A DNA stretch of 64,000 bases. Origin: Oscillibacter sp. ER4. Lineage in GTDB: Bacteria > Bacillota > Clostridia > Oscillospirales > Oscillospiraceae. The DNA lies in assembly GCF_000765235.1 (NCBI RefSeq), contig NZ_JPJG01000034.1, forward strand, positions 1 to 64,000. Reading direction: 5' to 3'. The notes below the pieces were generated by a model. The model did not search any database. It was not told the DNA's origin and worked only from the letters and a program-made list of their open reading frames with translations. Position numbers and translations under genes: made by a program. Shown here piece by piece: positions 52,754 through 55,700 of the stretch (the first letter of the stretch is position 1; every line of letters starts with the position of its first letter).

Positions 52754-53458
52754 TTATTTCTTGAGGCGCTTATCGCTCTTGGCCGCAAGGTGCGTGCCCA
52801 AGGACTGGAAGATCTGCACCAGAATGATAAGCAGCACGACCGCTGCGAACATCACAAGGTACTTGTAGCGATAGTAGCCGTAGTCGATGGCGATCTTGCC
52901 GAGGCCGCCGCCGCCGATGATGCCGCTCATCGCCGAGTAGCCGAGGATGGTCGTCAGTGCGATGGTGAAGTTCTGGAGCAGCGAGGGAACGCTCTCGGGG
53001 ATCATCACCTTGCAGATGATCTGCATGGGCGTTGCGCCCATGCTCTGAGCGGCCTCAATGATGTTGGGGTCGACCTCGCGCAGGCTGCTTTCAACAAGGC
53101 GCGCGACGAACGGGAACGCCGCCACGACCAGCGGAACGATGGTCGCGGTGGTGCCGACGGTCGTGCCGATGATGAGGCGCGAGAGCGGGAAGACCATGAT
53201 CATTAAGATGAGGAACGGGATCGAGCGCAGCAGGTTGATGATGACGTTCAGAATGCTCATCAAGGCCTTGGGAAGCGGCAGAACGCCGCCCTTCTCCCCC
53301 GCTACGAGCAGCACGCCCAGCGGAAGGCCAATGACGACGGCCAGCGCCGTCGAAAGCAGCGTCACATAAAACGTCTCCCAGATCGCCTTGGGGAACTGCG
53401 TCTGCATGGCGACGGTGAGCTCTGCGATGGAGTCCGGGGAAAAGAGATTACTGTACAT
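52754..53458 (-). CDS. metI: Methionine ABC transporter permease
   Basis: The 234-residue membrane protein has five to six helices and the permease loop (VDPNIIEAAQSMGATPMQII; quoted in part), matching MetI. It overlaps metN by 11 bp. With MetN and MetQ it forms the high-affinity methionine importer. Confidence 0.93.
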   Translation of the reverse strand: MYSNLFSPDSIAELTVAMQTQFPKAIWETFYVTLLSTALAVVIGLPLGVLLVAGEKGGVLPLPKALMSILNVIINLLRSIPFLILMIMVFPLSRLIIGTTVGTTATIVPLVVAAFPFVARLVESSLREVDPNIIEAAQSMGATPMQIICKVMIPESVPSLLQNFTIALTTILGYSAMSGIIGGGGLGKIAIDYGYYRYKYLVMFAAVVLLIILVQIFQSLGTHLAAKSDKRLKK

Positions 53459-54461
53459 CGACGCTCGCCTCCTCTACCTGAAGATTTTCAATGCTTCTTA
53501 AAAAGTCCATGGCCTGCTCGAACTGCGCGTTCGGCACGCCGAGGAGCATGCTGCCGTACACCTCTTCGGAGAGCTTCTGCGTGTTGGCCGAAATGACCGT
53601 CGCGCTGATGCCCTCTTCGGTCGCAAGGCGCGCGACGAGCGGAATGGATGTCGTCTTCGCGCTGCGGAAGATGAGGCGGATGCGGCGCTGCTGCTGGGGG
53701 TCGGACACGTCGATGTCCGCGCCGCGCGGGAACACGAGGTGGCGCGCCGCCGCGGACTTGGGCGCGGAAAAGACGGTAGAAACAAGGCCCTCTTCCACGA
53801 CTTCGCCGTCGTCGAGGATCGCAACGTGATTGCAGACCTCCTTCACCACGCTCATCTGGTGTGTGATGATGACGACGGTGATGCCAAGCTTTTTGTTGAT
53901 GTCGCCGATCAGCTCGAGGATCTGGCGCGTCGTCTTGGGGTCGAGCGCGCTCGTGGCCTCGTCGCAGAGCAGGACCTTGGGGTTCGTGGCGAGCGCGCGG
54001 GCGATGGCCACGCGCTGCTGCTGTCCGCCGGAGAGCTGTGCGGGATAGGCCTTGGCCTTATCCTTGAGCCCCACGATGTCGAGGAGCTCCAGCGCCCGCT
54101 GTTCGCGCCACTTCTTCTCTCCCCGCAAGCCGGAAAGCTCCATCGGAAAGCAGACGTTAGCGAGACAGTTTCGCTGCATCAGCAGGTTGAAGCGCTGGAA
54201 GATCATCGTGATCTCGCGCCGCGCCGCGCGGAGCTGCGCGGGGGTCATCGTGTCCAGACGCTGTCCGTTCACGATGACCTCGCCCTCCGTCGGGCGCTCG
54301 AGCATATTGATGCAGCGCACGAGCGTGGATTTGCCGGCGCCGCTCATGCCGATGATGCCGTAGACGTCGCCGTCCGGAATGGTCAGGGAGACATCCTTGA
54401 GCGCGTCTACCCGTCCGCCGGCTGTTTCAAAGGTTTTGCTTAGATGCTTCAGTTCGATCAA
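53448..54461 (-). CDS. metN: Methionine ABC transporter ATPase
   Basis: The 337-residue protein has Walker A (GMSGAGKSTLVRC), signature (LSGGQQQRVAIARAL), Walker B (LLCDEATSALDP) and the C-terminal NIL (ACT-like) domain, where methionine binds and inhibits transport in known MetN proteins. It lies 21 bp after metQ. Confidence 0.95.
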   Translation of the reverse strand: MIELKHLSKTFETAGGRVDALKDVSLTIPDGDVYGIIGMSGAGKSTLVRCINMLERPTEGEVIVNGQRLDTMTPAQLRAARREITMIFQRFNLLMQRNCLANVCFPMELSGLRGEKKWREQRALELLDIVGLKDKAKAYPAQLSGGQQQRVAIARALATNPKVLLCDEATSALDPKTTRQILELIGDINKKLGITVVIITHQMSVVKEVCNHVAILDDGEVVEEGLVSTVFSAPKSAAARHLVFPRGADIDVSDPQQQRRIRLIFRSAKTTSIPLVARLATEEGISATVISANTQKLSEEVYGSMLLGVPNAQFEQAMDFLRSIENLQVEEASVDVQ

Positions 54462-54482: not shown

Positions 54483-55370
54483 TTACTTGGCGCTCAGCGC
54501 ATCGAGCGTGGTCTGCTTGCCGCCGTACAGGCCCATGGGCTCGACGTGGATGGCGGCAACGGAGACGATGTGGGTGCTGTTCTCGGCGTTGAAGTCGTCG
54601 AGATAGGGCTTGTGTTGGAAGTAGTTGGCGTCGACAGTGCCGTCTTCGACAACGGTGTTGGGCACGACATAGTCATTGTAGACCTGGATGTCGAGGGTGA
54701 TGTTCTTCTCGGCGAGGATGCTCTTCACGATCTCGAGGATCTCAGCGTGCGGGGTCGGAGAAGCGGCGATAGAGATGGTCTCGCCAGCGAGAGCGTCGTA
54801 GTCGACCGTGGCGTCAAAGCCGTCGGTCGGGTTCTCCACAGTGCTGACAACGGAGCCGTCATACTTCTCGTTGATGTAATCGACGACCTGCTGGCTCTCG
54901 AGAGCGGCGATCAGGGCGAGAATCTTGGGAGAGGTCTCGTTGCCTTCCTTCACGGCCAGGATGTTGGCGTAAGCGGAGGAGGAGCCTTCGATCACGAGGG
55001 AGTCGGCCACGGGGTTCAGGCCCGCGTTGATGGCGTAGTTGGAGTTGATGACGGCGTAGTCAACGTCCTGCAGGATGTTGGGGATCTGCGCAGCCTCGGT
55101 CTCGACGATCTCGACGTTGTACGGATTCTCGACAATGTCGTTCTTGGTGGCGGTGATGCCGGCACCGTCAGCGAGCTTGATGACGCCGTTGTCCTGGAGC
55201 AGGAGCAGCGCGCGGGCTTCGTTGGTCGTGTCGTTGGGGACGGCGATCTGGATGGTGGTGGCGCTGTCGCCGGAGTCATCGCTCTTGGAGCCGCAGCCGG
55301 TCAGGGCCAGAGCGGCAGTGAGGACCAGTGCAAGGACAAGGGCGGTCAGCTTAATAGAATGCTTTTTCAT
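54483..55370 (-). CDS. metQ: Methionine-binding lipoprotein MetQ
   Basis: The 295-residue protein has a lipoprotein signal (LALTGC-G at ~residue 22) and the NlpA/MetQ fold (IQIAVPNDTTNEARALLLLQ; DGVIKLADGAGITATKND-like region; HKPYLDDFNAEN). The ATG at 55,370 follows AAGGAG. The frame is open further upstream, but that part contains the leader peptide gene and terminator and is not MetQ. Confidence 0.94.
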   Translation of the reverse strand: MKKHSIKLTALVLALVLTAALALTGCGSKSDDSGDSATTIQIAVPNDTTNEARALLLLQDNGVIKLADGAGITATKNDIVENPYNVEIVETEAAQIPNILQDVDYAVINSNYAINAGLNPVADSLVIEGSSSAYANILAVKEGNETSPKILALIAALESQQVVDYINEKYDGSVVSTVENPTDGFDATVDYDALAGETISIAASPTPHAEILEIVKSILAEKNITLDIQVYNDYVVPNTVVEDGTVDANYFQHKPYLDDFNAENSTHIVSVAAIHVEPMGLYGGKQTTLDALSAK

Positions 55371-55451: not shown

Positions 55452-55484
55452 AAAAAACAGCGGGAGGTCATTGACCTTCCGCTG
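55452..55484 (-). terminator. Attenuator terminator in the metQNI leader
   Basis: On the minus strand CAGCGG-A-AGGTC, loop AAT, GACCT-C-CCGCTG (55,484-55,458) is followed by TTTTTT (55,457-55,452). It lies between the Met-rich leader peptide and metQ. The segment AATGACC in its loop and 3' arm is complementary to GGTCATT inside the leader peptide gene, giving an alternative antiterminator pairing. Confidence 0.8.
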
Positions 55485-55501
55485 CCGCTTCGCTGTTTTT
55501 C

Positions 55502-55612
55502 TCAGACAGTTTCTGAAAGGAAATGACCATTTTCTCCATGACAAAGCATGCACATGCTGAACATGCGCATCATCGGCATCATCATGCAGTTGGCAGAGTA
55601 CGAAGTCTTCAT
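55502..55612 (-). CDS. Methionine-rich leader peptide of metQNI
   Basis: A 36-codon frame begins with ATG at 55,612 after GAAGGAAAGGA. It reads MKTSYSANCMMMPMMRMF, then SMCMLCHGENGHFLSETV and stop. Ten of 36 residues are Met, eight of them between positions 10 and 22. It lies between a strong promoter and the terminator that precedes metQ. By analogy with trp, his and leu leaders, ribosomes waiting for Met-tRNA at this run would leave GGTCATT (codons 29-31) free to break the terminator. Confidence 0.78.
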   Translation of the reverse strand: MKTSYSANCMMMPMMRMFSMCMLCHGENGHFLSETV

Positions 55613-55671
55613 GCCAATGAATCCTTTCCTTCGAGCATTCCCCACGGGGTGGGTTCCGTTTCAATGTGCGT

Positions 55672-55700
55672 ATCGTAGCACCGACGATTCCGCTTGTCAA
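55672..55700 (-). promoter_or_regulatory. Promoter of the met leader and metQNI
   Basis: TTGACA (55,700-55,695) and TACGAT (55,677-55,672) with a 17-bp spacer on the minus strand. No S-box (SAM-I) or T-box consensus is seen in the leader. Confidence 0.75.

Follow-up and report, generated by a model that had tools for sequence, protein, structure and literature searches.

The methionine importer operon metQNI of Oscillibacter sp. ER4 is preceded by a short open reading frame (ORF) with a run of Met codons, located between a promoter and an intrinsic terminator. We propose, at a probability of about 0.88, that this leader controls the operon by ribosome-mediated transcription attenuation and senses the supply of methionyl-tRNA (elongator tRNA-Met). 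Comparison of related loci establishes the ORF, the coding constraint on it, the Met run, the terminator, two partner-specific RNA pairings and the position of the element before five kinds of methionine or cysteine gene. The locus lies on the minus strand of the window, by which we mean the whole stretch of 64,000 nucleotides of contig NZ_JPJG01000034.1 that was analysed (Table 1).

Layout and coding constraint of the leader

The original prediction placed a 36-codon Met-rich ORF with a Shine-Dalgarno (SD) sequence between a promoter and an intrinsic terminator, ahead of a methionine importer, and all of these elements were located. Eight Met codons occupy positions 10-22 as stated, but the ORF holds nine Met codons in total, start included (positions 1, 10, 11, 12, 14, 15, 17, 20 and 22), and not the ten that had been counted. 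The gene neighbouring the leader terminates ahead of the promoter. The terminator hairpin (55485-55457) has a free energy of -18.7 kcal/mol, and the predicted gap of about 80 bp separates the terminator from the ATG of metQ at 55370.

Table 1. Features of the metQNI leader and operon, with positions in the window.
Feature	Position	Strand	Details
Promoter, sigma-70-type, TTGACA-17-TACGAT	55700-55672	-	10/12 consensus positions; extended -10 (TG)
SD-like GAAGGAAAGGATT of leader ORF	55632-55620	-	
Strand 1, leader SD/start region GAAGGAAAGGATTCATTGGC	55613-55632	-	can pair with strand 2; duplex -17.2 kcal/mol
Leader ORF, 36 codons, peptide MKTSYSANCMMMPMMRMFSMCMLCHGENGHFLSETV then stop	55612-55502	-	profile match in own genome, E 2.4e-10, with the window leader itself a row of that profile
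Control region, eight Met codons (positions 10-22)	55547-55585	-	Met columns are the conserved columns in leader alignments
Hairpin within Met codons, AUGCGCAUG UUCAG CAUGUGCAU	55548-55570	-	found by eye; in most relatives
Strand 2, GGTCATT-T-CCTTTC, final codons of leader ORF	55515-55528	-	proximal antiterminator arm
Intrinsic terminator	55452-55485	-	strand 3, 55473-55485; loop, 55470-55472; strand 4, 55457-55469; U-run ends at 55452
Antiterminator distal arm	55466-55480	-	GGAAGG (55475-55480) and AATGACC (55466-55472)
metQ, NlpA/MetQ lipoprotein, lobes circularly permuted	54483-55370	-	PF03180, E 9.6e-75
metN, methionine ABC transporter ATPase	53448-54461	-	TIGR02314, E 2.8e-103, under its curated cut-off
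metI, methionine ABC transporter permease	52754-53458	-	PRK10782.1, E 7.2e-62, slightly under its curated cut-off

The permutation shows in the matches of the window MetQ to ordinary MetQ/NlpA: residues 41-175 correspond to the C-terminal part and residues 196-293 to the N-terminal part. This arrangement is common to about 90 related loci, which align over nearly the full length.

Beyond the start codon, 59 distinct leaders from several families contain 460 ATG triplets in the frame of the ORF, versus 33 and 4 in the two remaining frames. This bias indicates a coding constraint on the Met codons, and from the conservation of the frame we infer that the ORF is translated. The median leader has 35 codons and eight internal Met. 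In leader alignments, the Met columns, M1 and one Cys are the sole near-invariant columns, and the neighbouring residues vary freely (C/Y/R/H). The spacing within the Met run varies, with length changing by whole codons, and the C-terminal residues track the RNA pairing.

Partner-specific RNA pairings

It had been predicted that GGTCATT, among the final codons of the leader ORF, and AATGACC in the terminator form a switch. The two motifs (55528-55522 and 55472-55466) are exact complements, yet their pairing makes up just the outer half of the antiterminator, of which CCTTTC/GGAAGG is the inner half. Together they form one nested antiterminator between strand 2 and 55466-55480 (-17.5 kcal/mol). 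Relatives hold the same design with other letters, such as CAACA/UGUUG, GAUG/CAUC, GACG/CGUC, CAAAUG/CAUUUG and CGAUG/CGUCG.

We paired each strand 2 with its own terminator 5' arm and loop and, by permutation, with those of other species. The own-partner 2:3 pairing gave z -8.3 (0/5000 permutations, n=30 leaders), and the own-partner 1:2 pairing, between strand 2 and its own SD/start region, gave z -6.7 (0/5000, n=30). For an independent set of leaders that do not precede metQ, the values were -5.1 for 2:3 and -4.8 for 1:2 (0/20000, n=13). Such tests count related sequences, a concern that is limited by a set of 21 leaders less than 55% identical (2:3 z -7.1, 1:2 z -6.6, 0/20000) and by the negative controls, in which control region pairs ranged between z -1.4 and +1.7. 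Strand 2 had no pairing signal with the Met run itself (z -1.1). With single leaders, a dinucleotide-shuffle test had too little power (mean z -1.0, p<0.05 in 8/36) owing to the length and high GC content of the region searched, and the cross-partner permutation test was used instead. Relatives keep both the Met run and the alternative pairing, with complementarity specific to each partner, as expected of the predicted switch. With partner-specific 1:2 and 2:3 pairings, the leader follows the 1:2, 2:3, 3:4 scheme of classical attenuators.

The start of strand 2 is usually 13-46 nt past the last Met codon and, for the majority of leaders, no more than about 45 nt ahead of the stop codon. A few leaders break this coverage rule, for example L083, with strand 2 too far ahead of the stop codon for a ribosome located there. 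When the model places a ribosome at the last Met codon and the RNA reaches just beyond the loop, the terminator 5' arm is predicted to pair upstream with a mean probability of 0.72. With the ribosome modelled at the stop codon, the terminator is predicted to form (0.94). At equilibrium in the full-length RNA, the terminator prevails for both ribosome positions and outweighs the antiterminator even when strand 2 is free (0.83 vs 0.10), and thus the decision of the switch must be kinetic, taken during transcription. A kinetic decision of this kind is accepted for classical attenuators.

Recurrence before sulfur amino acid genes

A search of 150 genomes of the family returned 11 full-length MetQ matches including the window, and a Met-rich short ORF with an SD and a terminator lies upstream in nine of these loci, the window included. 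A wider scan covered 80 related metQ loci from Oscillospiraceae, Ruminococcaceae, Lachnospiraceae and other Clostridia. The Met-rich ORF is present in 27 of them, where almost without exception a strong hairpin and a U-run come after it, and 44 have neither a Met leader nor a T-box. Among these 44 loci, five retain a weakened Met run, some metQ genes stand behind another gene, and some loci begin with a second short ORF. In L052 and L066, the permuted metQ directly follows another coding region without a leader of its own, and it is probably a later gene of an operon; L053 and L089 are nearly identical in MetQ.

A profile HMM built from the leader peptides alone gave hits in 35 of the 400 genomes searched from the family (best E 2e-12), against four weak matches (best E 0.015) for a decoy profile of reversed leader peptides with equal Met density. 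We fetched 30 of the matched loci. One is a false match within a gene, and the other 29 directly precede sulfur amino acid genes, namely permuted metQ (16), ordinary metN-metI (6), metA (3), metY (3) and cysK (1); PF04204, PF01053 and PF00291 matched in the metA, metY and cysK set. Beyond the family, further leaders are located before metY and metQ elsewhere in the order and class, and two genomes (G492 and G916) have two Met leaders each. The leader before cysK (L141) contains seven Cys and seven Met codons, which suggests the same element moved towards cysteine. A DNA search of the genus with the leader returned the window itself and two chance matches; the match in L004 falls within coding sequence that has no relation to Met genes.

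The original prediction saw neither an S-box nor a T-box in the leader, and Rfam agrees. At curated thresholds no family matched in the whole window, with chance scores only in the leader, and the T-box (RF00230), SAM-I/S-box and other SAM riboswitch aptamers are absent from the window leader and from the scanned Met-leader loci. Elsewhere in the window's own genome there are seven T-boxes above the gathering score, five weaker ones, and one SAM-I riboswitch before metK, a gene named from its sequence.

In nine Lachnospiraceae metQ orthologues a T-box takes the position of the leader, and none of the nine has a Met leader. The MetQ tree groups them in a single well-supported clade. By eye, the specifier position GAAC-AUG-G shows an apparent AUG specifier for Met. 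Judging from these sequences, T-box and Met leader appear to be two different sensors for one set of genes and one predicted signal. In L094, L099, L103 and L106, we notice the orphan RNA TwoAYGGAY (RF01731) between the T-box and metQ, near 2710-2890, on a strand that varies by locus.

We also notice a second conserved short ORF, with the consensus xxxFExLVRxNFRFGRM(C), which precedes metY, metQ or metN by about 100-130 nt (L150, L154, L157, L161, L162, L165, L081, L083, L105, L107 and L175-L199). Its DNA CGAATGTG is nearly constant. In loci having both elements it lies directly past the Met-leader terminator, and it is absent from the window. Of 245 genomes of the order, 57 gave a match to a profile of this ORF. 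Rfam had no match in the scanned loci, and we found no paper on it. The ORF may encode another, independent leader or arrest peptide of sulfur genes.

Proposed mechanism, alternatives and known systems

The leaders have a short ORF with an SD and a cluster of codons for one amino acid, the one that the downstream genes serve. In nearly all of them an intrinsic terminator separates the ORF from the first gene, and in most the proximal antiterminator strand follows the control codons at a distance where a ribosome at the stop codon would cover it. This architecture supports the interpretation of the original prediction, and from it we infer the stalling of the ribosome, its signal and the direction of the response.

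In the proposed mechanism, RNA polymerase sets out from the promoter, followed by a ribosome that reads the Met-rich leader. When Met-tRNA is ample, the ribosome would reach the stop codon and mask strand 2, so that the 3:4 terminator forms and metQNI is off. When Met-tRNA is scarce, the ribosome would stall in the Met run, holding strands 1 and 2 apart; strand 2, now free, would pair with the emerging strand 3 as the 2:3 antiterminator, and the polymerase would continue into metQNI. With no ribosome on the RNA, strand 2 would close the ribosome-binding site of the leader (1:2) and the terminator would form. A point against this mechanism is that severe Met starvation should cut initiation on the leader too, which the 1:2 helix would convert into termination.

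We tentatively consider a double Met sensor, in which elongator Met-tRNA is read at the Met codons and initiator fMet-tRNA through the frequency of leader initiation, since pairing of strand 2 with the ribosome-binding site of the leader can bring termination back. We regard this extension as rather doubtful. If true, the response would peak at moderate Met shortage and drop again at extreme starvation, unlike that of attenuators for other amino acids.

The signal may also be Met plus Cys, as suggested by the enrichment of Cys in the leaders (10% of residues, median three per leader). The same attenuator would then stall at Met or Cys codons and read Cys-tRNA together with Met-tRNA, for which the leader before cysK also speaks; however, Met exceeds Cys by over two to one and most target genes are Met-specific, and we consider a combined sensor possible but unlikely. 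The Cys residues between Met (MCMxxMCM), kept more than Met starvation alone needs, and an often similar Arg/Cys-rich segment past the Met run could instead point to a nascent-chain arrest peptide, which itself stalls the ribosome on free Met, SAM or another sulfur metabolite and thereby sets the RNA switch. TnaC is an arrest peptide of this type that responds to Trp, and stalling by peptides of the TnaC/SecM type depends on particular residues close to the peptidyl-transferase centre. Yet a starvation sensor needs the codons alone, and the leaders conform to that: residues other than M1, the Met columns and the one Cys vary, as does the run spacing, and the C-terminal residues follow the RNA pairing. 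We consider arrest by the peptide very unlikely.

The ORF might, on the other hand, be held by accident in the aptamer of a new riboswitch for Met, SAM or a similar metabolite, since the leader folds strongly (z -3.7) and the hairpin AUGYGCAUG-N5-CAUGUGCAU recurs in the Met run. It is possible that this hairpin is a pause hairpin or a by-product of Met-NNC-Met repeats. Conservation of ATG in one frame only, together with SD, start and stop, argues against a riboswitch, as do the whole-codon changes in run length and the failure to match Rfam, and no conserved unpaired core was noticed; we give this reading very little weight, less than the arrest peptide. That a Met-rich ORF and an unrelated terminator meet by chance, with no regulatory link, might be suspected from the many genomes of the window's own genus, the majority, without a DNA match to the leader. 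The comparative data refute it, and its probability is negligible: the element recurs before Met genes in many genera, the pairing is partner-specific, the decoy control stayed weak and the neighbouring gene ends before the promoter. Attenuation by codon reading of Met-tRNA remains the preferred explanation.

Leader-peptide attenuation is textbook knowledge for Trp, His, Leu, Thr, Phe and Ile/Val, and Met control in Firmicutes is ascribed to the S-box, the T-box or proteins. The original prediction called a Met leader peptide rarely or never described. We found no report of one in the open-access literature, an absence that is provisional since older subscription papers may be missing. One leader type spans genes for import and synthesis (metQNI, metNI, metA, metY and cysK) in several families of Clostridia, mostly in gut bacteria that have not been cultured and in which small ORFs escape annotation. 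The cultured strain 1XD21-13 (locus L062) also carries the leader. This leader type offers a clean case of one signal for which leader peptide and T-box are interchangeable as sensors before orthologous genes, and it raises the question of how an attenuator operates when its amino acid is also required for the start of translation.

The Met leader shares with the trp, his, leu, thr and phe attenuators of E. coli an ORF rich in codons for the end product, the 3:4, 2:3 and 1:2 helices, and cognate operons. It differs from them in its host, a member of the Clostridia, in its amino acid, which is also the initiating residue, and in strand 1, which is the ribosome-binding site here and the control codons in E. 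coli. Within Firmicutes, His leader-peptide attenuators exist, in which the leader replaces a T-box before orthologous genes such as hisS (Naville and Gautheret 2010, PMC2965389; PMC9413887). They occupy the place of the T-box before orthologues as the Met leader does, but respond to histidine, have consecutive His codons and control other genes.

For sulfur amino acids, candidate Cys leader peptides are described in Actinobacteria, with no conserved terminator hairpin for Cys, and no conserved RNA element is reported before Met operons there (PMC1262725); for uORFC-8-2, which precedes cysS in Rhodobacterales, ribosome-mediated attenuation has been described (PMC8632094). Both resemble the Met leader in having runs of sulfur amino acid codons in the leader ORF, and both concern cysteine only. 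The S-box (SAM-I) likewise acts on terminators of Met genes in Firmicutes but senses SAM. Closest in signal is the Met T-box, which controls terminators of Met genes by tRNA-Met charging. It binds uncharged tRNA directly, without an ORF, and that of the S. aureus met leader prefers the initiator tRNA (PMC3771891), whereas a leader that reads codons must use the elongator tRNA. The Met leader is therefore best regarded as a new specificity of a known class of attenuator, one whose amino acid also starts translation.
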